Shown here: positions 4,773-52,090 of the stretch, in pieces
Position numbering within the stretch: the first letter of the stretch is position 1
How the letters are laid out: the number at the start of each line of letters is the position of its first letter
From: Neobacillus paridis
GTDB taxonomy: Bacteria; Bacillota; Bacilli; Bacillales; Cytobacillaceae
Reading direction: 5' to 3'
Assembly: GCF_016765675.1 (NCBI RefSeq)
Contig: NZ_JAESWB010000181.1
Location: forward strand, 186,001 to 250,000
Length of the DNA: 64,000 nt
The notes under the pieces: generated by a model
The model's database searches: none
Seen by the model: only the letters and a program-made list of their open reading frames with translations
What the model was told of the DNA's origin: nothing
Program-made: the position numbers and the translations under genes

Positions 4773-5609
4773 CTATATTAACAGGGCTTCACCCAATTCC
4801 TCATTTAAACTGATATTGGAGATATGCTTGCTGGTTTCCTTATTCTCGGCAATTTCCTCCATATATTTATAGGCAAGTAATTCAATAATCGCAATCATTG
4901 AAATACGGGAAGTCATGTCAATGCCGCCAACCTGGATACAATCAGCAAACACATATAAATTAATATGGCTCATATTTTGGACAGGGTTATTATTTGCCGA
5001 TGTAATCGAGACAACGGTGGCTTTTGATTTTATATTTAATAGTTCAATTTCCCTGATCAATTCCTTATCTTCTCCGCCGTATGTCAAGAAAAACACGAGG
5101 TCTGTGTTACGGATGCCGTTTAGAAGCATTTGCCGGAAGTAGTGATCCTCAGGGAAAATAACTTCAAACCCAAAGCCGGAAAAAACATACTCAAAATAAT
5201 GGGCTACACTTTTGTTTAACCCCCGAGCCATCACGATCAATCTAGGCTTCTCCTTCAAAAGCTGAATAATTTTATCGACTTTGTCATTATCCAGTACACG
5301 GACAGATTCATAGATATTTTTTAAGTATTCTATTCGATAATCTTCCTGTGGCACCACAAAAGGGTTATGACTTTCCTTCATGTCCGTATCGGTATATTTA
5401 AGGATGGCAATAAATTCGCTGTATCCGGAAAAGCCGATTTTTCTGAGGAAACGTATGATCGTTGCCGGAGATACATAGCATTTGGCAGCCAACTCACGAA
5501 TGGTGCTCCCCCGTACCTCTTCCATATTCCGAATGATATATTTATACAAATCCTTCTCACTTAAATTTAATGAATGAATATGTTTCGCTGTAATTTCAAA
5601 AAAATCCAT
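4773..5609 (-). CDS. MurR/RpiR family transcriptional regulator (agmatine operon)
   Basis: The 278-residue protein has an N-terminal RpiR helix-turn-helix (STIRELAAKCYVSPATIIRFLRKIGF, about 35-60) and a C-terminal SIS domain (about 110-245; PRLIVMARGLNKSVAHYF, YGGEDKELI, SITSANNNPVQ). RpiR proteins usually sense phosphorylated sugars through SIS; the ligand here is unknown. The ATG at 5609 is chosen over the upstream start at 5624 because GGAGGT lies 7 bases before it and the paralogue begins identically (MDFFEIT). By eye about three quarters of residues match the paralogue at 54386-55165. Position and shared operators suggest control of the agu operon. Confidence 0.88.
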   Translation of the reverse strand: MDFFEITAKHIHSLNLSEKDLYKYIIRNMEEVRGSTIRELAAKCYVSPATIIRFLRKIGFSGYSEFIAILKYTDTDMKESHNPFVVPQEDYRIEYLKNIYESVRVLDNDKVDKIIQLLKEKPRLIVMARGLNKSVAHYFEYVFSGFGFEVIFPEDHYFRQMLLNGIRNTDLVFFLTYGGEDKELIREIELLNIKSKATVVSITSANNNPVQNMSHINLYVFADCIQVGGIDMTSRISMIAIIELLAYKYMEEIAENKETSKHISNISLNEELGEALLI

Positions 5610-5826
5610 ATTGCAGACCTCCAATATTCTGCGATTACAGTTTAAATATGTAAGCGATTGTATTTTTATTATACCACTTAGTAATACTTATTACATATTA
5701 CTCTATTAAAATTTTATGACAAAATTAGCAACATTCCAAATTCCAATAACCCCTTACTAAATTTATCAGTAAAACACAATCCGGCCTGTTTCATTTTCAC
5801 CACCGTGCCGACACCAACCGCCAGGA

Positions 5827-6540
5827 TTATCTTGCTAATTTATATGGCTGATTCCGGTTTCGCTGCAATTTTCGCAAATGAAAATATCCTATTGTTGTGG
5901 TCACCAATGCCCCCAAAGCATCAACAATAATATCTTCCATTGTGTCAGCAAGCGCCTCATGACCAAAAAGAATCGTTCCATCGGCGGTAATAAATTTTTG
6001 CATATTTGTCCCTAACAGGCTGTCAGCGACAAATTCGTAAATCTCCCAGACCGCCCCGCTGGCGAGAGCAAAGCAAAAGGAAAATAAGGCAACAAAAAAA
6101 GGACTTAACTCAATGTTAAGCTTATCCGTTTCATTAAAGAAATTTACCAGGACAAATCCCAATGCCCCTAACATAACAGCACTGAAGCAATGGAGAATCA
6201 AGTCCCAATAGGGAATTCTAAAATAAAAATTACGGACTTCCCCAAGATAAATCGCACAAAATAAAAAAATAAAGTAGATAATTTCCATTATGTCTGGTAT
6301 ATCAATATGAAACCGCCGCTCCACCCTTGAAGGAAGAAAGATCACGATACAGCCGAAAATACATTGTAAAATCATCAATACATAATCACTCTTCACTCTT
6401 TCAAACTTATGTTGGGCAGGGCCTGATGGGGTGATGAAAAACATAAAAATGGCGTAAATCACTGACATGATCAGTAAACTCAGTACAATACGAAATACCC
6501 AGGTTTTCCTTTTCGGATATTTTTTACTTTCCTCGATCAA
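5827..6540 (-). CDS. DUF2238-type integral membrane protein
   Basis: A 237-residue protein with about six hydrophobic segments and the conserved region EVRNFYFRIPYWDLILHCFSA (about 100-120) and SGAVWEIYEFVADSLLGTNMQ (about 165-185) typical of DUF2238/YjdF-like proteins. Function is unknown. Translation probably starts at the TTG at 6540, because GGAGGAG lies just upstream and no better ATG follows. It stands alone between the RpiR gene and ahpC, on the opposite strand from ahpC. Confidence 0.75.
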   Translation of the reverse strand: MIEESKKYPKRKTWVFRIVLSLLIMSVIYAIFMFFITPSGPAQHKFERVKSDYVLMILQCIFGCIVIFLPSRVERRFHIDIPDIMEIIYFIFLFCAIYLGEVRNFYFRIPYWDLILHCFSAVMLGALGFVLVNFFNETDKLNIELSPFFVALFSFCFALASGAVWEIYEFVADSLLGTNMQKFITADGTILFGHEALADTMEDIIVDALGALVTTTIGYFHLRKLQRNRNQPYKLAR

Positions 6541-6853
6541 TTCTTCTCCTCCTCTTTATCCTAAACAGTTTCCTGTTATGACCATTCTCATTTCTTAACT
6601 TCAAGCAGGGTAGCAGGCTCTTCATTCCTATTATATCGATTACAACTATAAGCGGGGAAAGATTTGTGTAGTCCGCCGATTATTAAAATTAGTGTGATTT
6701 TTAACATAATTAGGTTGATTATCTCTTTTAACCTGTTCTATTCTCAGTTATGCACTTGTACAGAAAAACTTTGTCCATAAAGGTGTATTCTTTTACAAAG
6801 TGGATAAACTATGTAACAATTAGTATCTAATTAAAATTATTATTACTTTTCGG

Positions 6854-41528: not shown

Positions 41529-42290
41529 ATGAACCATGCAGCGATTTCTGTAAAAGGATTAAAAAAATCGTTTAAAGACAAGGAAGTTTTAAAAGGGGTG
41601 GATTTCGAGGTGCAGCGTGGCGAAATTTTCGCACTGCTAGGCTCAAATGGAGCAGGCAAGACGACGACGATCAACATCCTCTCGACGCTTATGAAGCCTG
41701 ATGGCGGCGAAGCAAGCATTTGCGGCTTTGACGTCCGCCGTCAACCGGATCATGTTCGCCAGAGCATCAGCCTGACAGGGCAGTTCTCGAGCTTAGACGG
41801 CATGCTCACAGGCAGGGAAAATCTGATAATGATCGCTAAGCTGCGCGGCGCTTCCAATCCCGCTCACGTCGCCGACGATCTGCTTGCAAAATTCAACCTG
41901 GTTGATGCGGCCAACCGACGGGCGGACCAATATTCCGGCGGGATGAAACGCCGGCTTGATATTGCCATGAGCCTGATTGGGAAACCAGCCGTTATTTTTC
42001 TCGATGAGCCGACGACAGGGCTTGACCCAGAAGCACGGATTGAAGTCTGGAATACCGTCAAGGAGCTTGCCGGCAGCGGCACGACCATCCTGCTGACAAC
42101 CCAGTACCTGGAAGAAGCCGAACAATTGGCGGACCGCATTGCCATCCTGCATGACGGAAAAATCATTACGACCGGGACCCTTTCCGAACTTAAAAAGATG
42201 TTCCCCCCGGCGAAAGTGGAGTATATCGAGAAGCAGCCGACATTGGAGGAAATTTTTCTTGCGATCATCGCCAAAAAGGAGGAGAAATAA
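41529..42290 (+). CDS. ABC transporter ATP-binding protein, DrrA-type
   Basis: 253 residues. Walker A GSNGAGKTT (38-46), Q-loop near 83, signature YSGGMKRRLDIA near 138, Walker B VIFLDEPTTGLDP near 158 and H-loop region near 193. The DrrA-like type drives export of drugs or lipids with the permease that follows one base after its stop. GC-richer than the neighbouring region. Ribosome site AAGGAGGAAAAAGG. Confidence 0.93.
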   Translation: MNHAAISVKGLKKSFKDKEVLKGVDFEVQRGEIFALLGSNGAGKTTTINILSTLMKPDGGEASICGFDVRRQPDHVRQSISLTGQFSSLDGMLTGRENLIMIAKLRGASNPAHVADDLLAKFNLVDAANRRADQYSGGMKRRLDIAMSLIGKPAVIFLDEPTTGLDPEARIEVWNTVKELAGSGTTILLTTQYLEEAEQLADRIAILHDGKIITTGTLSELKKMFPPAKVEYIEKQPTLEEIFLAIIAKKEEK

Positions 42291-43040
42291 ATGAGAAGCA
42301 AAACAGCTGTATTACTGGGACGTTTAATGCGCAACATTATGCGTAGCCCGGATACCATTATCACGGTGGCGATTACGCCGATTATGATGATGTTGTTATT
42401 TGTCTATGTGTTTGGCGGTGCTATCAAAACAGGAACGGACAATTATGTCAATTATTTATTGCCGGGGATCTTGCTGATGGCGATTGCATCCGGTGTTGCA
42501 TACACTTCCCTGCGGCTGTTTAATGATGTAAAGAGCGGGCTGATGGCGCGTTTCATTACCATGCCGATCAAGCGCTCGTCGATATTGTGGGCACACGTGT
42601 TGACCTCGCTTGTTTCCAATGCACTTACTGTCTTGGTGGTGATCCTTATTGCGCTCTTGATGGGCTTCCGTTCGGGCGCTGATATCCTGCATTGGTTCGC
42701 GGCAGCTGGAATACTTGGGCTATTTACGCTTGCGCTGACATGGTTGGCGGTCATTCCCGGATTGACAGCGAAGTCGATGGAAGGGGCGACAGCCTACTCA
42801 TATCCGCTGATATTCTTGCCGTTTATCAGTTCGGCCTTTGTCCCCACCGAAACGATGCCAAAAATTGTCCGTGTGTTCGCTGAGAACCAGCCCGTGACTT
42901 CCATCGTAAATGCCATTCGTGCCCTCTTGTATGGAGGGTCAATTGGCAATGGTATCTGGATCGCGCTTGCCTGGTGCGTCGGCATCATGGTTATCGCTTA
43001 CCTCTTCGCCAGTAAAGCCTTTAAGCGTCAATTAGGATAA
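42291..43040 (+). CDS. ABC-2 type transporter permease, DrrB-type
   Basis: 249 residues, six hydrophobic segments, with MRSPDTIITVAITPIMMMLLFVYVFGGAI at the N-terminus, the ABC-2 pattern of DrrB, and PLIFLPFISSAFVPTETMP near 178. Partner of the preceding ATPase. Likely efflux of a toxic compound; substrate unknown. Confidence 0.9.
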   Translation: MRSKTAVLLGRLMRNIMRSPDTIITVAITPIMMMLLFVYVFGGAIKTGTDNYVNYLLPGILLMAIASGVAYTSLRLFNDVKSGLMARFITMPIKRSSILWAHVLTSLVSNALTVLVVILIALLMGFRSGADILHWFAAAGILGLFTLALTWLAVIPGLTAKSMEGATAYSYPLIFLPFISSAFVPTETMPKIVRVFAENQPVTSIVNAIRALLYGGSIGNGIWIALAWCVGIMVIAYLFASKAFKRQLG

Positions 43041-43298: not shown

Positions 43299-43326
43299 AC
43301 CTCATTTACTTATGATACGGTTCACC
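43299..43326 (-). other. Left attachment-like site (att) of the rlmH island
   Basis: Minus strand reads GGTGAACCGTATCATAAGTA and on through AATGAGGT, identical over 28 bases to the end of rlmH at 51558-51585. It lies 5 bases from the M24 stop codon and has no coding role there. Confidence 0.65.
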
Positions 43327-43330
43327 GCAG

Positions 43331-44461
43331 CTACTTAGACCCTTTGATGATGACATCAGTTAGTTCTGTAGGGGCTGTTGTTAAAAATTCATACCCTCCC
43401 TTTGTCACAAGTATCGTGTCGGAGTGCCTGTAACCTCCAACTCCATCAATATAAATACCAGGTTCTATCGTGATCACCATATTTTCTTCCAAAATTTCAT
43501 CACTACCTTCTGCCACAAAAGGTGCCTCATGGTTCCCCAAGCCCACACCGTGCCCAGTCCGATGCAACAGATTTCCTCCCAATCCATTCTTTACAAGATA
43601 ATTTCTTGCCTCGGAATCAACATCTGCAGCTCTTACCCCGGCTTTCAATACATTCAATGACCTTTGTCGGGCATTCATCATGTAGTGAAATAACTCCTCC
43701 TCTTCTTTTGTTGGCTTTTCAAGGAAAAAGGTTCGCTCACATTCAGAGGCATAACCGTTTATTCTAAAATAAGCCATTGCCACGTTCGGTCCTTTCCCCA
43801 GTCGATCATCGAAGTTGGGAACACTATGCGGCATGGAACTAACGGGTGCTGGCCATACTGCCGTCAGGAGTGAAGTAGAGAGTGGATCAAATTGCTTTGT
43901 CCGCATAAGCTCGGATTGGATGCTTCCTGACAAAGCAAAAGATTCAACAACGGCAGCCCCTGTGTAAACTGATTTGAAAATCATTTCCATCGCTCTGTCC
44001 GATATTCCTGCACTCCATCTAATTTTTTCAAGTTCGTATAGACTTTTTGTTTTTCGTTGCTCAACGACTAGCTTGCTTGGAATCAGTTCCTTTGCTTTGA
44101 TTTTTAAAAATACCTCTGTTTTCACATTGTCCTCTATTCCTGTTCTTTCAAATCTTTTAATTAAATCATTCAATACCTCATACCAGTTTTCTCCCACAGG
44201 TGAAGGGTATTCCCAATAGGTGATAACCTTACAGTCTAGGATTCCTTTATACACATGTGCTTCTTCAAGTTTTGGCACCACTAATACTGGTTGTTGATTG
44301 GGAGATATAACAAGAAAAAATGGACGTTCTTCTGGCTTATAGGTAATATTTGTAAAGTACCAAATATCCTCTTCAGCCGTAATGATGTAGGAGTCCAAAG
44401 AATGTGTTTCCATTGTCTTTTGAAAGCGATCCATTCTATTTTGCAATTCATGTTTTAACAT
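43331..44461 (-). CDS. Creatinase-like M24 family protein (pita-bread fold)
   Basis: 376 residues: N-terminal creatinase_N domain (about 1-135) and C-terminal pita-bread domain (about 145-370). HRTGHGVGLGNHEAP (about 295-309) and ITIEPGIYIDG match M24, but metal ligands are altered: the first Asp position lies in AYFRINGY, the second is SECERT rather than SDxTR, and the last Glu in RIED is RHSD. This pattern resembles metal-independent creatinase or ectoine hydrolase rather than Xaa-Pro peptidase. It follows an MFS gene by 12 bases, so probably cleaves the imported compound. Confidence 0.75.
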   Translation of the reverse strand: MLKHELQNRMDRFQKTMETHSLDSYIITAEEDIWYFTNITYKPEERPFFLVISPNQQPVLVVPKLEEAHVYKGILDCKVITYWEYPSPVGENWYEVLNDLIKRFERTGIEDNVKTEVFLKIKAKELIPSKLVVEQRKTKSLYELEKIRWSAGISDRAMEMIFKSVYTGAAVVESFALSGSIQSELMRTKQFDPLSTSLLTAVWPAPVSSMPHSVPNFDDRLGKGPNVAMAYFRINGYASECERTFFLEKPTKEEEELFHYMMNARQRSLNVLKAGVRAADVDSEARNYLVKNGLGGNLLHRTGHGVGLGNHEAPFVAEGSDEILEENMVITIEPGIYIDGVGGYRHSDTILVTKGGYEFLTTAPTELTDVIIKGSK

Positions 44462-44473
44462 ATCAATTCCACC

Positions 44474-45721
44474 TCAAATTTTTTTATCAAGAGTGTTATC
44501 TTGATTAATTATTGAATTTTCATTTCGTACCAAGCGATTATTTTTAAGGGTTAGTCCCAAACCCAACGACAGGATATTTCCAAGAATCAAATAGTAAAAG
44601 GCCATTTCATACGATCCATCAAATAGTTTTATCAAAATCCCCATTACAGCAGGAGTAACAAAAGCGGCTAGATTGGCACCGGTATTTAGCAGACCGAAAG
44701 CAGATCCCATTATGGAAGAAGGGAGTGATTTCAATGGAATGGACAAGATCCCCATATAGGCAATCTGAAAAGTAAATCCGGCTAATACCTGAAATGTGAC
44801 GACCACTGCTATCGATTCAGCCGTAAACATAGCATAGATAAAGAAGGCGGAAAGAGCATTTCCAATGATGATCATTAGTCTCTCGCGATTATTAAAGACC
44901 TTATCAACCAGCCATCCTCCTGCTAAGTAGCCAAGCATAGTGGAAATAGCCGGTAGGGCTGAATAGATTCCTGTATTTAACAAATCAATTTTTCTTACAT
45001 TTATTAAATAAGAAGGTACCCAACTTATCAGACCCCACATAGCTGTATACAAGCCGAATAACGCAACTACCACTTTCCAAATGGCAGCTGTACGAAGCAA
45101 CTCTTTAATCGGTATATTCTTGTCTTGTTGATCTTTCTGTTGGCTCTTCTCTTTAACGGACGGAAGGGCAAAATAGTATATCATCGCAATACCTATTCCA
45201 ATTGCTCCAAAAAGAAAATAAACATTTCTCCAGCCAATTGAAGTAATCAGATACGCACCGGCAATGCTGGCAAAGAACGAACCCAAACCAATAGCGACAA
45301 GTAATATGGACTGAACACGAGACCTTTTTTCATTAGAAAAATGTTCACTCATTAGTTTTGTGGCTCCTCCTGGAAAGGCACCCTCACCAAGACCAAAGAT
45401 TAAACGAATAATTAGTAAGGATACAAGAGACCAAGCAAAACCGGATAATCCAGCAAATAGTGAAAAAGCAGTAATCGATATAATGATTGCTCGCTTAGAT
45501 CCAAACAAATCGGCCAGCAAACCACCGGGAAGTTGCATAAGGGTATACCCTAAATAAAAAATACTTAATATTATTCCCATAGAAGCCGCATCTAAGTGTA
45601 ATTCTTGTGCTATAGGGTGGATGGCAATGTTAATAAACATTCGGTCAAGAGAAGAAATAAACCACCCCAAGAAAAGTAATGCAATTAAAAATCTTTTATT
45701 CTCCGAAACCTTTCCTTTCAC
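44474..45721 (-). CDS. MFS transporter, anion:cation symporter type
   Basis: 415 residues, 12 membrane segments; WFISSLDRMFINIAIHPIAQELHLD near the N-terminus, LPGGLLADLFGSKR loop between segments 2 and 3, and GEGAFPGGATKLMSEHF are typical of the ACS branch (sugar acids, other organic acids). GTG start at 45721 with GGGAGG upstream. In an operon with the M24 protein, divergent from a LysR gene; substrate probably that of the M24 enzyme. Confidence 0.85.
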   Translation of the reverse strand: MKGKVSENKRFLIALLFLGWFISSLDRMFINIAIHPIAQELHLDAASMGIILSIFYLGYTLMQLPGGLLADLFGSKRAIIISITAFSLFAGLSGFAWSLVSLLIIRLIFGLGEGAFPGGATKLMSEHFSNEKRSRVQSILLVAIGLGSFFASIAGAYLITSIGWRNVYFLFGAIGIGIAMIYYFALPSVKEKSQQKDQQDKNIPIKELLRTAAIWKVVVALFGLYTAMWGLISWVPSYLINVRKIDLLNTGIYSALPAISTMLGYLAGGWLVDKVFNNRERLMIIIGNALSAFFIYAMFTAESIAVVVTFQVLAGFTFQIAYMGILSIPLKSLPSSIMGSAFGLLNTGANLAAFVTPAVMGILIKLFDGSYEMAFYYLILGNILSLGLGLTLKNNRLVRNENSIINQDNTLDKKI

Positions 45722-45848
45722 TTTCTTTCCCTCCCATTCTTTTTATTCTCTTGACTTTATTTTAAATAATCAGAATAATTAAGAGAAATACTTATAAATT
45801 GATGTATTAATACCTAATAGGTATTAATAATAAGAAGGAGGAAAGTAA

Positions 45849-46742
45849 ATGGAACTGAGACATATCCGATATTTTCTTGCTCTTGCGGAGGAATTGAATT
45901 TTGGTCGAGCCGCAGAAAGGTTACACATCGCCCAACCACCTCTTAGTAGGCAAATACAAGAGTTAGAGGAGGAAATTGGAGCCAAACTGTTTTATAGGAC
46001 AAAGCGACATGTTGAGTTGACAAATGCCGGAAAGGTGTTTCTAAACAAAGCATACCAAATCCTTGATCAAGTTGAACAAGCATGCGTTAGCACGCGATTA
46101 TCTTCTACTGGGGCAGAAGGTGAAGTAGTAATTGGGTTTAGTGGAACAGTACAGGATCTTATTCCAGTCATTCAAAAATATCATGAGCTTTATCCTCATG
46201 TTGGAATAACATTACACCAAATGAATACCGCCAATCAAATCAAAGCCTTAAATGAAAAAAGGATTGACATCGGTATTGTAGCGGCTCCAGTTAATAGTAA
46301 TAAAATTCATGTAAGGCCATTAACAAAAGTATGTTTTTTGGCTACGTTACCGGAAAAACATCCCCTTGCTAACAAACATTCCATTAACCTTCGTGATTTG
46401 GCGGACGAAACCTTTATCATGACACCTAAATCAGCAGGTGTATTGTATTACGAAACTTTTATGAGTATTTTCCAAATGGCCGGATTTGCACCAAAAATTA
46501 TGATTCAGGCCAATGACCTCCAATCTGTTTTGGCATTGGTCGCTGCTGGTATGGGGGTAGCATTGACACCTTCATCCAGTACTCCTTGCGGCGGGGTCAT
46601 ACAGCGTAAAGTGGAAGATATAAATGTATCTTTAGAAGCATCCATTGCATGGAGAAAGGATAATCACTCTGAGATATTAGACAAATTACTTAAATCCTTT
46701 TTTAATTTTTTTCATATTGAATTTGAAAATATAGTGAACTGA
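45849..46742 (+). CDS. LysR family transcriptional regulator
   Basis: 297 residues: helix-turn-helix MELRHIRYFLALAEELNFGRAAERLHIAQPPLSRQIQELE (1-40), effector domain 90-290. The N-terminus matches the BenM/CatM/CbbR-like branch. ATG with AAGGAGG upstream. Divergent from the MFS-M24 operon (127 bases between starts), so its probable regulator. Confidence 0.88.
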   Translation: MELRHIRYFLALAEELNFGRAAERLHIAQPPLSRQIQELEEEIGAKLFYRTKRHVELTNAGKVFLNKAYQILDQVEQACVSTRLSSTGAEGEVVIGFSGTVQDLIPVIQKYHELYPHVGITLHQMNTANQIKALNEKRIDIGIVAAPVNSNKIHVRPLTKVCFLATLPEKHPLANKHSINLRDLADETFIMTPKSAGVLYYETFMSIFQMAGFAPKIMIQANDLQSVLALVAAGMGVALTPSSSTPCGGVIQRKVEDINVSLEASIAWRKDNHSEILDKLLKSFFNFFHIEFENIVN

Positions 46743-46855
46743 GTGTTAATCCGTCTGGTATTAACACTCTACATCTTGACCTTGTTAAAATCGTCTCCAT
46801 CTCTTAAGGGAAATAACGATTTTAACCCAATTTACAAAATTAGTAAAAAAACCTT

Positions 46856-46876
46856 CTATTTGTGATACGGTTTAAT
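46856..46876 (-). other. Degenerate third att-like site
   Basis: Minus strand AAACCGTATCACAAATAG against AACCGTATCATAAGTAA at rlmH: AACCGTATCA is shared and the following AA.TA agrees. The change TCATAAG to TCACAAA is of the kind seen among SCC att variants. Confidence 0.45.
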
Positions 46877-46933
46877 GACTTCTAATACAACCCATTCATT
46901 TGGAAAACGTTCTTGTACCTCAATCCAACGCAT
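46856..46933 (-). pseudogene. 25-codon N-terminal gene fragment ending in an att-like site
   Basis: ATG at 46933 with GGAG upstream encodes MRWIEVQERFPNEWVVLEVI then KPYHK and a stop. It looks like the N-terminus of a small Bacillus protein family cut short. The last residues (PYHK-stop) come from the att-like sequence, as in rlmH (EPYHK-stop), as if recombination at the site replaced the rest of the gene. Confidence 0.5.
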
Positions 46934-46996
46934 CTAATCACTCCGTTCATGTATATTTGTCTTCATTTTATCATAAAACATTAAGCACTAAGTTAG

Positions 46997-47839
46997 CTAT
47001 TGGTCGCCCATTCTCCTTTCAAACCTTTCTTTCTCGCCATTATACCCATCCATATAGCCTTTTCTTACATGGCTCTTCAGCTGTTCAGGAGATTCCATTT
47101 CCTTTATGTCTGCTTGATCAAGTGTTATGATTTTTGCATATACATTTCCGTATTGATCCCGTAATTTTTCATCCTTATAAAAATTTATGCCATTGTTCGA
47201 ATCGAGCAGTATTGCTTCTTGTTTTTTAAGACTTTGAATAAATGTAAACAGTTGATTGGAATAATCTCCAATAGACGATTCTTTTGCCGTTGAATGAATA
47301 TAGATGCTTATCGGAACTTCAGCCTTTAACTTCTCATAATCCGGCTTTTGCTGAAACTTCCACCGTTTTTCTTGCGCATTGTCTACCGATGCAAACGCAA
47401 AGTAGCTTACATTTCCTTTTTCCGCTCCAAATGCTTTCTTAAGAGCAGGTTCCACTTCCTTTTGAACCCCTTCACTCAAGGCCCTAAATAAATAATTGTC
47501 GTATGGTTTGCATGTTGTTTTTCCTTTCGAAGTTGAATACAATTCACATGAAATCTCGGCAACCCATCCCTTCTCTCTGTCTTTTACCTTTACCGTAATA
47601 TAAGGGGGTGCTTCTTCCGGCTCTTCTGGAATGATTTCAAAACCTGTAATTTGAACAATATTGCCATATGTATCTTTTACATATTCAATTAGCATGGAAT
47701 CTTTTACCAACTGTTTCTCTTCATTCGTTAAATGTTCCTTATCTATTATCTTTTCGACTTGACGATCCGTTTTTGCACTACAACCCACTAATCCTAATAA
47801 AAGAGAAAGACAAATGAGCAACCATTTCGTTCTGTTCAT
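46997..47839 (-). CDS. Lipoprotein of unknown function
   Basis: 280 residues from the ATG at 47839 (GGAGG upstream). Signal peptide with lipobox LLGLVGCSAK (C about 20). The mature part is hydrophilic: an early EKIIDKEHLTNEEKQLVKDSMLIEYVKDTYG, a beta-rich middle (PYITVKVKDREKGWVAEISCELYS) and a C-terminal MDGYNGEKERFERRMGDQ. Two cysteines in the mature middle (SCELYS, TTCKPY) could bond. No family recognised. Sits alone in the right part of the rlmH island. Confidence 0.7.
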   Translation of the reverse strand: MNRTKWLLICLSLLLGLVGCSAKTDRQVEKIIDKEHLTNEEKQLVKDSMLIEYVKDTYGNIVQITGFEIIPEEPEEAPPYITVKVKDREKGWVAEISCELYSTSKGKTTCKPYDNYLFRALSEGVQKEVEPALKKAFGAEKGNVSYFAFASVDNAQEKRWKFQQKPDYEKLKAEVPISIYIHSTAKESSIGDYSNQLFTFIQSLKKQEAILLDSNNGINFYKDEKLRDQYGNVYAKIITLDQADIKEMESPEQLKSHVRKGYMDGYNGEKERFERRMGDQ

Positions 47840-48106
47840 AATCATCCTCCGATACTGGTAAATTAAAATTAGAAGGAAAAGGTCGTGCTTCAAAATATAA
47901 ACTGTTATAAAATAATGCTTTTTAAAATACCACATGCGTTTTTAAAACTCGCCATTATTATGAACCGGGTTCTTTTGCTTTATCAAAAAGGACCAAGGAT
48001 TCCATTAAACCCGTATGTCTCTTTTGTTATTCCTAATTGTAGTTTAAAGGAATCCAAAAGATCTCACTATTCAAGTGAGCTTCCTCTAACACTTCCTCCG
48101 AATGGT

Positions 48107-48694
48107 TTACTTCCCACTATCATCTTGAAAAACATGTTTAAGTTCTATGCTTAAATCTTCAAATATGTTGACCTTTATGGAATCTTCTTTTGTATAGAAA
48201 CCTGATGAAATAAAGCGATTGTTCTGCAACAGAAATACTTCCACGTATTCGTTTGAGGGGTCGACAATCCAATATTCTCTGACCCCAGCCTTTTGATAGT
48301 TATTGAATTTGATGACTCTGTCATTTCGAGCGGTGGAGGGAGAAAGAATTTCAATCACCAAATCGGGAGCACCAACAATATTTTGTGGGTTGATTTTATT
48401 ACGATCACATATGACCACAATATCTGGTTGAACCCAATCCTTGATCTTTTCGTTTGGTGTTGTTTGATTCGCAAAAAGGCACACATCGATGGGAGAACCA
48501 AATACACTGCACTCTTTTCCCCTTAAATACGTACCAAATTCAATTAATAACTCTCTTTGAACATGCTGGTGCTTTGGTGTCGGTGCTGGCGACATACTAA
48601 TAATTTGCCCGTCAATCACTTCATATCGAATTTCTTCCGAAGACTCAAGATAATCAGCATATGAGTAATTAGACTGTGGTTGATTCATGCTCAT
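48107..48694 (-). CDS. Uma2 family endonuclease-like protein
   Basis: 195 residues with the PD-(D/E)XK-type Uma2 pattern: YEVIDGQIISMSPAPTPKHQ near 24-43, QPDIVVICDRNKI near 90-102, PDLVIEILSPSTARNDRVIKFNNYQKAGVREYWIVDP (about 110-146) with the E-x-L-S core. Uma2 genes are common in cyanobacteria and scattered in Bacilli; nuclease activity is predicted, role unknown. Start could be 48694 or the in-frame ATG at 48688. Confidence 0.82.
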   Translation of the reverse strand: MSMNQPQSNYSYADYLESSEEIRYEVIDGQIISMSPAPTPKHQHVQRELLIEFGTYLRGKECSVFGSPIDVCLFANQTTPNEKIKDWVQPDIVVICDRNKINPQNIVGAPDLVIEILSPSTARNDRVIKFNNYQKAGVREYWIVDPSNEYVEVFLLQNNRFISSGFYTKEDSIKVNIFEDLSIELKHVFQDDSGK

Positions 48695-48727
48695 TCCATT
48701 CACCCTTTCTCCATTTTCATCCTTCAA

Positions 48728-49079
48728 TAGTTCCCCTTACCTCACCGGTCATTAGTTCGGGGAGTAGGGTGCCCCCCATTTTTTCTAACCTTTTTGATTC
48801 AATTCTTGCTGCATTTATTACAGGTTAAGAATGTATTCAGGGTCGTTCAATCGTTCACCCCTACTGTCTTTTGTCTTTATTTTATCGTATTTTTGTTGAC
48901 CATTACAATGAGGGATAATCTTTGCCTAGATGAAAAAGATACAGTGGCGCAATACTCCATCAAGCATTGGATCTGACCATGTTGTTGGGGGGCCTATTCC
49001 AATGTCGCAGTTCAATTGAATTTGGTCCTCGTTTTGTCGGATGGTATGTAAAGAAATAGCCGTCAACTTATGGTTGACC
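48728..49079. other. Non-coding gap
   Basis: No gene recognised between the permease and the Uma2 gene. GC-rich pairing stretches near 48735-48780 (CCCCTTACC, GGGGAGTAGGG, CCCCCC) may form a hairpin; function unclear. Confidence 0.4.
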
Positions 49080-50444
49080 CTATGCAGATAATTTAATATT
49101 TTTTTCTTCCTTCTTCCTATTTGAATGCCATGTAAATAATAGAATAAACCATAGAGGCGTCAACAATAGGGCAGGCCGTGTAACTTCAGCAAACAGCATA
49201 ATAATGAGAATGATGGCAAACAAGATTAGGACAACGTAATTAATAAATGGTGTGAATGGTGCTTTAAATTTTGATTCTGCCTGTAAATCTGAACGTGTTT
49301 TCTTATATCTTAAATGACAAATCAGAATGACACCCCAAACCCAAATAAAACAAATCGCACTAATGGTCGTCACGATTTCAAAAGCTTGTTCTGGAATAAG
49401 CTTAGTCAAAAGGGCTCCCACCGATAGGACTACCGTGGAGATCCATAATGCGTTACCTGGGACATGATTTTTATTTAGTTTTGTAAACTTAGATGGAGCC
49501 TGGTTATTATTACTTAAACTATATAGGATACGACTTGTTGAAAACATTCCGCTATTACAAGCAGAAGCTGCTGAGGTTAATACGACAAAATTAATAATTC
49601 CTGCTGCAATCGGAATTCCAACTAAACTAAACGTTTTAACAAAAGGACTTTCTGCTGCATTTAATTCCGTCCATGGGTTAATACATAAAAGGACAAGAAG
49701 TGCGCCAACGTAGAAAAATAGAATCCTTAAAGGAATTTTATTGATAGCCGATGGAATATTTTTTTCCGGGTTGGATGTTTCCGCTGCCGAGACACCTACT
49801 AATTCCACACCGACAAATGCAAATACAACCATTTGGAATGAAAGTAAGAAGCCTGATATTCCGTTTGGAAAAAGTCCCCCTTGTGCCCAAAGATTTTTAA
49901 TCGTAACCATACCTTGATTTGTCTTGAATCCCATCACCAGTAATATAATCCCAATAACAATTAATCCGAGAATCGTTATTACCTTTATTAAAGCAAACCA
50001 AAACTCCAATTCTCCAAAAATCTTTACAGTTAGTAGATTGAGTCCTAGTAAAATGATCAAACAGACAATTGCAGGGATCCATTGTGGAATATGGAACCAA
50101 TATTGTACATAAACACCAACGGCAATCACATCACTCATAGCAGTCATTATCCAACAAAACCAATAGGTCCATCCGGTTACAAAAGCATATCGTGGTCCAA
50201 GATAGTCTTCAGCAATATCTGTAATAGATTGATAACCTGCTTTAGACAACAGGAGTTCTCCTAGTGCCCTCATAACAAAAAAAACGGCGATTCCTACGAT
50301 TAAATATGCAAGGATGATGGATGGGCCCGCGAGTTGAATGGCTTTACCGGACCCTAAGAATAATCCCGTACCAATGGTACCGCCAATTGCGATTAGTTGT
50401 ACATGCCGATTTGATAAATCCCTCTTTAATTCTTGTTGTGCCAA
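49080..50444 (-). CDS. Amino acid permease, CycA/AapA-like, glycine-riboswitch controlled
   Basis: 454 residues, 12 membrane segments, APC superfamily AAT branch: LSNRHVQLIAIGGTIGTGLFLGSGKAI (about 9-35), FAFVGVELVGVSAAETSNPEKNIP (about 217-240). Related carriers import D-alanine, D-serine, glycine and similar. The glycine riboswitch in the leader supports glycine (or serine/alanine) as substrate. ATG at 50444 with AGGAGG upstream. Confidence 0.85.
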   Translation of the reverse strand: MAQQELKRDLSNRHVQLIAIGGTIGTGLFLGSGKAIQLAGPSIILAYLIVGIAVFFVMRALGELLLSKAGYQSITDIAEDYLGPRYAFVTGWTYWFCWIMTAMSDVIAVGVYVQYWFHIPQWIPAIVCLIILLGLNLLTVKIFGELEFWFALIKVITILGLIVIGIILLVMGFKTNQGMVTIKNLWAQGGLFPNGISGFLLSFQMVVFAFVGVELVGVSAAETSNPEKNIPSAINKIPLRILFFYVGALLVLLCINPWTELNAAESPFVKTFSLVGIPIAAGIINFVVLTSAASACNSGMFSTSRILYSLSNNNQAPSKFTKLNKNHVPGNALWISTVVLSVGALLTKLIPEQAFEIVTTISAICFIWVWGVILICHLRYKKTRSDLQAESKFKAPFTPFINYVVLILFAIILIIMLFAEVTRPALLLTPLWFILLFTWHSNRKKEEKNIKLSA

Positions 50445-50483
50445 TCCTAACTCCTCCTAATAAAATATTTTAGTTTAAACCAT

Positions 50484-50518
50484 AAAAAAAGAGATTGGAG
50501 GATATCCAATCTCTTTTC
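50484..50518 (-). terminator. Terminator in the leader between riboswitch and permease
   Basis: Minus strand AAAGAGATTGGATATCCTCC then AATCTCTTTTTTT: GAGATTGG/CCAATCTC stem followed by seven T. Lies about 60-90 bases downstream of the riboswitch aptamer, so it is the likely expression platform. Confidence 0.75.
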
Positions 50519-50574
50519 CAAAAGAATAATAAATAATATTTGGTATGCTAAATAGTATCAACACAACAAATAAA

Positions 50575-50668
50575 TATTCAGTACTCTTCTGTCCTTTTGC
50601 CTGAGATTGTGAACCCTTCGGCGCCGCAAAATTCCTGCGATCTCTCCAGAAGCTGCTCCTGCTATAGT
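50575..50668 (-). ncRNA. Glycine riboswitch (single aptamer)
   Basis: Minus strand carries the conserved glycine-aptamer blocks in order: GGAGAG (50647-50642), GCGCCGAAGGG near 50624-50614, and CTCAGGCAAAAGGACAG (50605-50589). Only one aptamer is visible; no second GGAGAG/CAGGCAAAAGGAC set follows before the terminator. It is upstream of an amino acid permease rather than gcvT, consistent with uptake control by glycine. Confidence 0.85.
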
Positions 50669-50806
50669 GTGACCCATAGCAATCATAGCCTGCTAATGAT
50701 TAAATTTAATTCACTATTTCTAAATAATTTTTAATTTTAGTAGTAGTTATATAGTTTGTCAACACATAAATTAACATCCCATACTGCTCTGTATTCATTT
50801 TTATTC

Positions 50807-50844
50807 AAAAAAACCTCCCTATAAAAATCATAGGGAGGTTTTTT
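50807..50844. terminator. Bidirectional terminator after the GIY-YIG gene
   Basis: AAAAAACCTCCCTAT pairs with ATAGGGAGGTTTTTT, 7-base loop. Confidence 0.85.
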
Positions 50845-50885
50845 ACACTTACGTTATTGGAAAATCTATTGCCTGTATGAAATTT

Positions 50886-51242
50886 TCACCTAAAAAACAC
50901 CTTGTCTATATTGTACTTCGACTTGAATTCATTAATAATATACGTTTCATAAATCTCTCTATGTACAGGGTCTTCGATAATACAAACATCGATTTTTGCA
51001 ACTTCATTCCTATGCATTTTAATTGGGGATACTGTATCTTCAAAATGCTTTTTAATTCTTTGCCGCAATTTCCTTGCCTTACCAACAAATAATAGCTCTT
51101 GGTTATGACTGTAGAACATAAAAATGCCACCCTTATCTCTAGGAATGAGGTGGAATTCTGTAAATCCATAAATATTACTTAATTCCGGGTTCTTCTGTTT
51201 AGTAATGGAAACATCTGGTTTTGGAATGGTTATGTTTATCAC
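50886..51242 (-). CDS. GIY-YIG nuclease family protein
   Basis: 118 residues. GGIFMFYSHNQELLFVGKARKLRQRIKKHF (about 37-66) is the GIY-YIG core with GIF replacing GIY and FVGKA replacing YIG(K)A; then EDPVHREIYETYIINEFKSKYN with the catalytic-type Glu. GTG start at 51242 with AAGGAG upstream. Small stand-alone members act on DNA in repair or mobile elements; role here unknown. Nearest cargo gene to the rlmH att site. Confidence 0.7.
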   Translation of the reverse strand: MINITIPKPDVSITKQKNPELSNIYGFTEFHLIPRDKGGIFMFYSHNQELLFVGKARKLRQRIKKHFEDTVSPIKMHRNEVAKIDVCIIEDPVHREIYETYIINEFKSKYNIDKVFFR

Positions 51243-51557
51243 TTTCGTTCACTTCTCCTTCGGTATTGGTTAAAAGTCTACACAGACTTCTTTAAGCATA
51301 TTTACATCCACCTTATGGAGTTCAACTGAGAAAAACAACATTTACAAATAGGTTTTCTATCATTACTGTTATGCAGTCGTATTTTGCATTCCAATTAATG
51401 AAAACTTTTAAATATCTTTCTCAACTTCTACCCCTGCATCATTCTTAGTAATAACCTTGGTTAAGCGTCTCATTTCTAAATGTACCCAACAAGGACATTA
51501 TAAATATAATTTACTTTTCTAAAGCCCGCTCCATTACTTTTTCACCAATATTTTAAC
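51243..51557. other. Non-coding stretch between GIY-YIG gene and rlmH end
   Basis: No gene, repeat or promoter recognised. It forms the element-side flank of the right att-like site. Confidence 0.4.
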
Positions 51558-51585
51558 ACCTCATTTACTTATGATACGGTTCACC
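51558..51585 (-). other. Right attachment-like site, within rlmH 3' end
   Basis: 28 bases identical to 43299-43326. Encodes GEPYHK and stop of RlmH plus eight bases beyond. In SCC elements the conserved att core sits in these same last codons of orfX/rlmH. Confidence 0.65.
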
Positions 51586-52044
51586 CCTAATAATCCGAAA
51601 CGCCCGATAGATCTGCTCAAGCAAAATCAATCGCATCAGCTGATGGGGGAAGGTCATCCGCGAGAACGACAGCTGTTCATTCGCCCGCTGCAAGACTTCG
51701 TCACTCAGTCCCAGTGATCCGCCGATGACGAAGGCAATTTTACTTTTACCGTAGGTGGCCAGTTGATCCAACGACTCGGCCAATTCTTCTGATGAGCGCA
51801 TCTTCCCCTTAATCGCCAAAGCAATTACATAGGTATCCGCACTAATTTTGGTGAGAATTCGTTCGCCCTCCTTTTGCTTCACCTGGAGCATTTCCAATTC
51901 ACTTAACTCCTCCGGGGCCTTTTCGTCTGCAACTTCAACCATCTCCACCTTGGCATAGGCGGAAAGCCGCTTGAGATACTCCTCTATCCCCAGCTTCAAG
52001 TACTTCTCTTTTAATTTTCCAACCGTAATAATTGAGATATTCAC
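51565..52044 (-). CDS. rlmH: 23S rRNA (pseudouridine1915-N3)-methyltransferase
   Basis: 159 residues from the GTG at 52044, giving [19 protein letters not shown] as in relatives (an upstream TTG at 52053 is possible but unneeded). SPOUT fold: SAM-binding [15 protein letters not shown] (about 100-114) and C-terminal [24 protein letters not shown]. Methylates pseudouridine 1915 in ribosome helix 69. Its 3' end is the att-like site of the neighbouring island and remains intact. Confidence 0.96.
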
Positions 52045-52090
52045 AATCCACAACCCTTTTAAATGGAATTAAGCACAGCTTACAAACAAC

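Follow-up and report, generated by a model that had tools for sequence, protein, structure and literature searches.

A probable pseudo-SCC-type locus behind rlmH in Neobacillus paridis, in a genus with small and numerous SCC-type cassettes

Staphylococcal cassette chromosome (SCC) elements, mainly known as carriers of methicillin resistance, insert at the 3′ end of rlmH. A 64,000-nucleotide stretch of Neobacillus paridis DNA (assembly GCF_016765675.1, contig NZ_JAESWB010000181.1, positions 186,001 to 250,000; hereafter the window) carries a second copy of that gene end, and an earlier note, made from the letters alone, took the DNA between the two copies for an SCC-like island outside the staphylococci. 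Is this DNA a cassette, is it one unit or several, and what could have moved it? We compared the window with its source genome (a draft assembly of 4.63 Mb in 424 contigs) and with relatives in the genus and the order. The comparison makes it likely that the island is accessory DNA between SCC-type attachment sites at rlmH, probably in two segments without ccr genes, in a genus whose cassettes would mostly be moved in trans.

Repeats and sites of the window island

The gene and the three sites on which the argument turns are as follows.

51565..52053, minus strand: rlmH, open reading frame (ORF) of 162 amino acids ending in GEPYHK and stop; its 3′ end is the attachment site
51558..51585, minus strand: site 1, the right 28-bp copy, covering the rlmH end
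46856..46873, minus strand: site 2, a weaker internal copy in the same orientation, with one mismatch to a degenerate 18-base core
43299..43326, minus strand: site 3, the left 28-bp copy

Sites 1 and 3 are identical at 28 of 28 positions and enclose 8.3 kb, and the right copy coincides with the end of rlmH, as the earlier note had it. Both copies contain TATCATAA, the type of core found in the direct repeats that flank SCC elements, so the attachment-site core that the note had recognised is present on either side. The island therefore has the attributes that define a pseudo-SCC: flanked by sites, inserted at the 3′ end of rlmH and free of ccr. The rlmH protein itself was present in 60 of 60 genomes searched. 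With up to three mismatches, a 23-base core occurs at two places only in the whole assembly (sites 1 and 3) and the reversed control pattern at none; abundance of the repeat in its own genome, which the note had named as a ground for doubt, does not apply.

The enclosed DNA is probably divided, as site 2, which the earlier note had not listed, suggests. When the island was simulated as a first-order Markov chain, 1 of 1,000 runs produced a match of this grade, and a short ORF (MRWIEVQERFPNEWVVLEVIKPYHK) lies upstream of it and terminates inside it. The segments would then run from 51.56 to 46.87 kb and from 46.86 to 43.3 kb, rather than forming one cassette. Base composition was rejected as evidence for an island because the island value (37.0% G+C; window, 40.3%) lies inside the range of same-size windows (36.2–43.3%).

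Sites across the genus and the order

The same kind of site recurs throughout the genus. In a set of 60 genomes (the source genome, 35 more of the genus and 24 of the order), the 23-base core at up to three mismatches matched in 44, the control in none. A second pattern, allowed up to two mismatches, found 128 sites in 16 largely complete genomes of the genus, where its reversal found 5; all 16 had sites, 4 to 16 per genome, a count to which each rlmH can contribute one. Downstream of rlmH (stretches of up to 20 kb each from 34 of the 35 relatives, G020 being left out) we counted 90 sites, at least two in 25 and at least three in 17 of the 34, compared with one reversed match in 653 kb. Sites often form head-to-tail arrays, both behind rlmH and at other chromosomal places, and in relatives the units between them are 0.4–14 kb long. 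Across the wider order, 174 of 199 genomes had at least one match, rlmH itself usually supplying one, and 43 had at least three (counted by eye from the table), the control never rising above two. Arrays are smaller there, with seven sites as the largest count outside the genus.

These counts bear on one alternative, that the rlmH end was duplicated by chance or by homologous recombination, with no tie to cassette chromosome elements. That the window genome has just two strong copies would fit such a duplication; the recurrence of core and orientation in 16 of 16 genus genomes and the CcrB-like genes near rlmH in six genus genomes speak against it. In its general form the relatives refute it, and we consider it very unlikely.

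Among 150 distinct sites, 38 were classed as rlmH ends (one more, at L121, escaped the filter) and no second target gene emerged, the remainder being mostly preceded by short in-frame stretches. In a count of 172 sites, the tail of rlmH was complete at 40 and present as a short rlmH-like remnant at 4, with none in either shifted frame. Longer rlmH 3′ fragments, each ending at a site, lie at second places in 3 of the 60 genomes and are possible seeds of secondary arrays.

G024:C34:393-545: rlmH 3′ fragment
G033:C1:5782826-5782999: rlmH 3′ fragment
G004:C23:75838-76016: rlmH 3′ fragment

With the sites near rlmH excluded and the origin assumed to lie 45 kb upstream of rlmH, 34 sites point with replication and 8 against it (8 of the 16 genomes, G010 contributing none), a weak signal because the sites are clustered. 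At one locus (L317, G060:C2:815510-831894), the 14 kb that begin with rlmH contain eight sites, and the units between them comprise one to three genes as judged by eye; its two ORFs at 5011-6796 resemble, by appearance, a plasmid-type partition pair. Head-to-head pairs of cores, as opposed to the usual head-to-tail order, occur at L132:16584-16627 and L321:5198-5231.

Matched unit ends

At a typical inner site one unit ends (as in AAACCTCATTTAGATACGTTACGGT), the core GAACCKTAYCATAARTAR follows and another unit begins (as in ATGAGGTTTTT); the arms at sites fall into types. When start and end arms were compared across 65 site-to-site segments (63 from relatives and 2 from the window; those below 250 bp were dropped), they scored a mean of 7.08 of 10, against 6.31 for shuffled pairs (standard deviation, 0.14), and none of 2,000 shuffles reached the observed mean. 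The two arms that meet at one site scored 6.4 (n = 35), much like shuffled ones. Because arms pair across segments and not across the site, the inverted repeats are a property of the units, which is also the case in SCC elements, and do not form hairpins at the site.

The pairing scores also decide against terminator-like or repetitive extragenic palindromic (REP)-type repeats in place of attachment sites. Such repeats would suit the intergenic position of the sites and the T-rich stretches that follow; they leave aside that arms at one site pair no better than shuffled (6.4 versus 6.31) while unit ends do pair, that half of the site consists of rlmH codons and that common units start at the site. 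The palindrome or terminator reading was rejected on the arm-pairing scores, and we hold it to be extremely unlikely.

The C reported in PMC6222049 as essential for CcrAB is kept in 145 of 148 sites. As to the crossover point, the letters at 14, 17 and 19, right of the core, vary with the right arm, and those at −7 and −5 with the left; the letters at 5 and 8 go weakly with the right arm, but the pairs G005/G025 and G008/G031 have their right unit in common and differ at letter 8.

Units in different slots and species

In relatives, units are present or absent from slot to slot. The fourth unit behind rlmH in G008 is the first in G019 (95.4% identity) and in G031 (94.5%), over 3.7 kb; this common unit starts within a few bases of the site, and the rlmH side is 78.3% identical. 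Slot 3 of G010 matches slot 1 of G013 at 97.6% over 5.8 kb (rlmH, 95.0%), G010 having two extra units between rlmH and the unit in common. G005 and G008 have a 2.46-kb unit in common from site to site (89.8%; rlmH, 78.0%), and G005 and G025 agree at 98.1% over 5.5 kb from the site on (rlmH, 82.8%), with homology that stops short of the far site. Given that identity exceeds that of rlmH, that boundaries are exact at sites and that neighbours differ, site-specific transfer of units from one species to another is the best account of these alignments.

Cargo of the window island

The genes between the sites, assigned by Pfam, are those that the earlier note had listed; the riboswitch proved to be of the glycine class, and the lipoprotein-like ORF had no Pfam hit.

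50886..51242, minus strand: GIY-YIG protein (PF01541)
50579..50659, minus strand: glycine riboswitch (RF00504, 50.9 bits)
49080..50444, minus strand: amino-acid permease (PF00324)
48107..48727, minus strand: Uma2 protein (PF05685)
46997..47935, minus strand: lipoprotein-like ORF, the last gene before site 2
45849..46742, plus strand: LysR regulator (PF00126, PF03466)
44474..45721, minus strand: MFS carrier (PF07690)
43331..44461, minus strand: M24 creatinase-like enzyme (PF00557, PF01321), ending 5 bp short of site 3

Outward from rlmH, site 1 is followed by the GIY-YIG gene, the riboswitch, the permease, Uma2, the lipoprotein-like ORF and site 2; beyond site 2 come the LysR gene (on the opposite strand), the carrier, the creatinase-like enzyme and site 3.

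Homologues of the GIY-YIG protein (30 matches at E ≤ 1e-30) tend to lie near sites. A site was found within about 8 kb in 11 of 20 homologous loci and in 1 of 20 control loci around a conserved ABC transporter (25 sites versus 1 in about 16 kb each; reversed pattern, 2 and 2), although 2 of the 11 site-bearing loci are rlmH arrays, so the association is not independent of rlmH. In G018 (L102), the GIY-YIG gene is the sole gene of a 443-bp unit. At the DNA level, the window permease matches a neighbouring cassette of G002 at 94%, and in that genome permease and GIY-YIG genes occupy adjoining separate units in the order opposite to that of the window. The single-gene unit and the separate units in reverse order suggest that segment 1 of the window (from site 1 to site 2) is a fusion of earlier units. 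The DNA of the lipoprotein-like ORF is 97.6% identical in G029, where the match stops 43 bp short of a site.

Between the GIY-YIG and permease genes, the window has a AAAAACCTCCCTATGATTTTTATAGGGAGGTTTTT-type palindrome (50795-50845), which is either a terminator or, possibly, the worn edge of a unit. In G026 and G014 (L176, L177) the creatinase-like gene adjoins the LysR gene; the window has the MFS gene in between (43331-46742).

Recombinase candidates

The window genome encodes four large serine recombinases, none on the contig of the window. They score 78–130 bits with the NCBI CcrB equivalog model (NF047343; cut-off, 900 bits) and none is CcrB-like at E ≤ 1e-50, which bears out the earlier statement that no ccr lies inside the island. 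SCC elements carry their ccr gene(s); the island has none and is thus at most a pseudo-SCC.

Candidates are found in relatives, where the earlier note had proposed to look. A CcrB-like match at E ≤ 1e-50 occurs in 12 of 61 genus genomes (0 of 61 above the cut-off; best, 436 bits), and in 6 of the 61 a CcrB-like gene lies within about 12 kb of rlmH: G001, G005 (in pieces), G022 (split), G066, G067 and G071. In G001 a pair of large serine recombinases (317 and 436 bits) is encoded 10 kb from rlmH, and the arms of the element that runs from rlmH to the following site match each other (CGGCGAAAT / TTTCGCCG). Alignment of five CcrB-like proteins gave at least 80 loci in named genomes. At least 13 named Firmicutes genomes, all within the first 17 loci listed, have a CcrB-like gene within about 12 kb of rlmH, examples being Terrilactibacillus tamarindi, Alkalihalobacterium chitinilyticum, Rossellomorea aquimaris, Bacillus kwashiorkori and Paenibacillus pinistramenti. 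At several loci (L232, L233, L247; L187, L188) the recombinase gene is convergent with rlmH and its 3′ end overlaps rlmH antisense, an arrangement that would account for the conservation of the recombinase tail.

The left flank

Beyond site 3 the window departs from its relatives.

41529..43040, plus strand: ABC transporter of the left flank, far from rlmH in relatives

Conserved copies of this transporter occur in 32 relatives (reported E = 0). In G005, G019, G031 and G033, where both genes lie on one contig, it is 2.4–3.3 Mb from rlmH, and among the genomes compared it adjoins the rlmH island only in the window genome. The flank opens with ATGAGGTTT, much as units do, and is similar to other flanks beside sites in relatives; its initial ~100 bases are like post-site DNA in G008 (75.7% over 103 bp). 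On these grounds, site 3 may be the start of a third unit or the scar of a rearrangement between two arrays.

One cassette, two segments or a relic

Several results weigh against a cassette-type origin of the island. The empty site that the earlier note had proposed to look for in relatives was not found for the window island (41.5–43.3 kb compared with 61 genus genomes, 30.0–43.3 kb with 11), the left flank having no collinear counterpart in the relatives searched: flank blocks are scattered with respect to 11 relatives, and against relatives' DNA the flank gave scattered gene matches only, with no collinearity to G029, in which the array is followed by other genes. The window genome, a draft, has no CcrB-like gene at E ≤ 1e-50, and 49 of 61 genus genomes are likewise without one. 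The ends of the two window segments, which score 4 and 5 of 10, lack the matching inverted repeats of SCC elements. Homology to G029 breaks off 103 bp before site 2 and not at it.

Some of this evidence would also suit a decayed composite, in which old cassettes with worn or rearranged ends have become fixed chromosome without active boundaries, and site 3 is a relic or the product of a recombination between arrays that placed the ABC transporter region beside rlmH. Neither window segment has matching end repeats, site 2 is weak, GIY-YIG and permease genes share one segment here and form two cassettes in the other order in G002, and the left flank is normally distant from rlmH. An old relic, however, would not need sites 1 and 3 to be identical over 28 bp, and relatives show the same site type in use. 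We regard such decay as plausible, at somewhat less than an even chance.

The proposal of an SCC-like cassette thus holds in part. The attachment-site anatomy, the genus-wide set of sites, the matching ends of cassettes in relatives and the occurrence of units in varied slots and species are observed directly; that the island is a single unit is unclear, as site 2 splits it and its end repeats score so low. The best reading is pseudo-SCC-type DNA without ccr, moved in trans if mobile at all, and the window holds a genuine, though perhaps worn, locus of this type. Mobility of the window's own island, in its present form, is something that we infer.

In CcrAB and CcrC systems two cores are brought together by the recombinase, which cleaves inside them and swaps the strands. 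By analogy, CcrB-like large serine recombinases would cut and join within the core GAACC(G/T)TA(T/C)CATAA(G/A)TA, freeing a unit as a circle or inserting it behind rlmH, where the core would restore the last codons of the gene. Cassettes would stack head to tail behind rlmH, each site rebuilding those codons. If recombinase genes are gained and lost on separate elements, most cassettes would be mobilised in trans.

Relation to known systems

Comparisons here refer to the openly accessible parts of the sources cited. The CcrAB/CcrC mechanism for SCC is summarised in PMC10581047 and PMC6222049. SCC-like islands at rlmH outside the staphylococci, tandem composites included, are already published, so the window island is not a first case there (PMC10061031, PMC10581047, PMC6222049). 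PMC10581047 describes them in Macrococcus, Enterococcus, Bacillus cereus and others, and PMC10061031 describes islands behind rlmH with last-codon repeats in several Bacillota, with tandem composites and three confirmed empty sites.

The closest likeness is to pseudo-SCC and composite SCC elements of Staphylococcus and Macrococcus (PMC10581047, PMC6008420), which have the same insertion at the rlmH end, TATCATAA-type core repeats, no ccr and the same tandem units with extra site copies, three of them adjacent in M. goetzii and M. bohemicus; PMC6008420 reports composites of three pseudo-SCC units. Described pseudo-SCC elements measure 6.7–26.6 kb, whereas units in the genus relatives go down to 0.44 kb; these relatives also carry sites elsewhere in the chromosome, and the end repeats of the window are unmatched. 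The Bacillota islands with Pol-SSB primases from the Rice laboratory (PMC10061031) share the position downstream of rlmH, the last-codon repeats, the tandem composites (Paenibacillus pinistramenti) and large serine recombinases, and include the three empty sites; they were selected for recombinase or primase, and the accessible text of PMC10061031 does not mention arrays of small ccr-less cassettes. The enterococcal cassette chromosome (ECC; PMC6222049) has the same rlmH site, TATCATAA core and inverted repeats, and its circularisation has been demonstrated. ECC elements are 21–78 kb long and carry ccrABEnt; 16 of 32 have several attR sites, and a genome gives fewer than five site hits. By comparison, no ccr was found in the window genome, and 16 relatives have 4 to 16 sites per genome. 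Dehalococcoides islands with DsiB (PMC3146451) are likewise tandem, stand behind an essential gene, often lack an integration module and have a CcrB-like integrase, but their target is ssrA and their site is unrelated to that at rlmH. Against the openly accessible literature, what appears to be new is how densely very small units without ccr occur throughout the genus, together with the measured matching of their arms and the exchange of units between slots and species.

Implications

The window locus sits in a genus with unusually small and numerous SCC-type cassettes. Tentatively, and with a probability that we put only a little under even, the whole may amount to a genus-wide serine-recombinase gene-cassette system: cassettes of one to three genes with matched ends would be stacked at rlmH and further sites, mobilised in trans and exchanged between species. 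By analogy this would be an integron-like function evolved from SCC-type elements, with some secondary arrays seeded by rlmH 3′ fragments, and with CcrB-like genes that visit and are then lost. Sites tend to be oriented with replication, and arrays that lie far apart may recombine and so rearrange the chromosome, the left flank of the window being a possible instance. Units held in common in different slots provide natural before-and-after pairs for the study of crossover and of mobilisation in trans. If a genus of the Bacillales has, as a rule, arrays of tiny cassettes that lack ccr and whose ends match, cassette chromosomes may be a general system of gene exchange in Firmicutes, of which the staphylococcal elements would be a special case.

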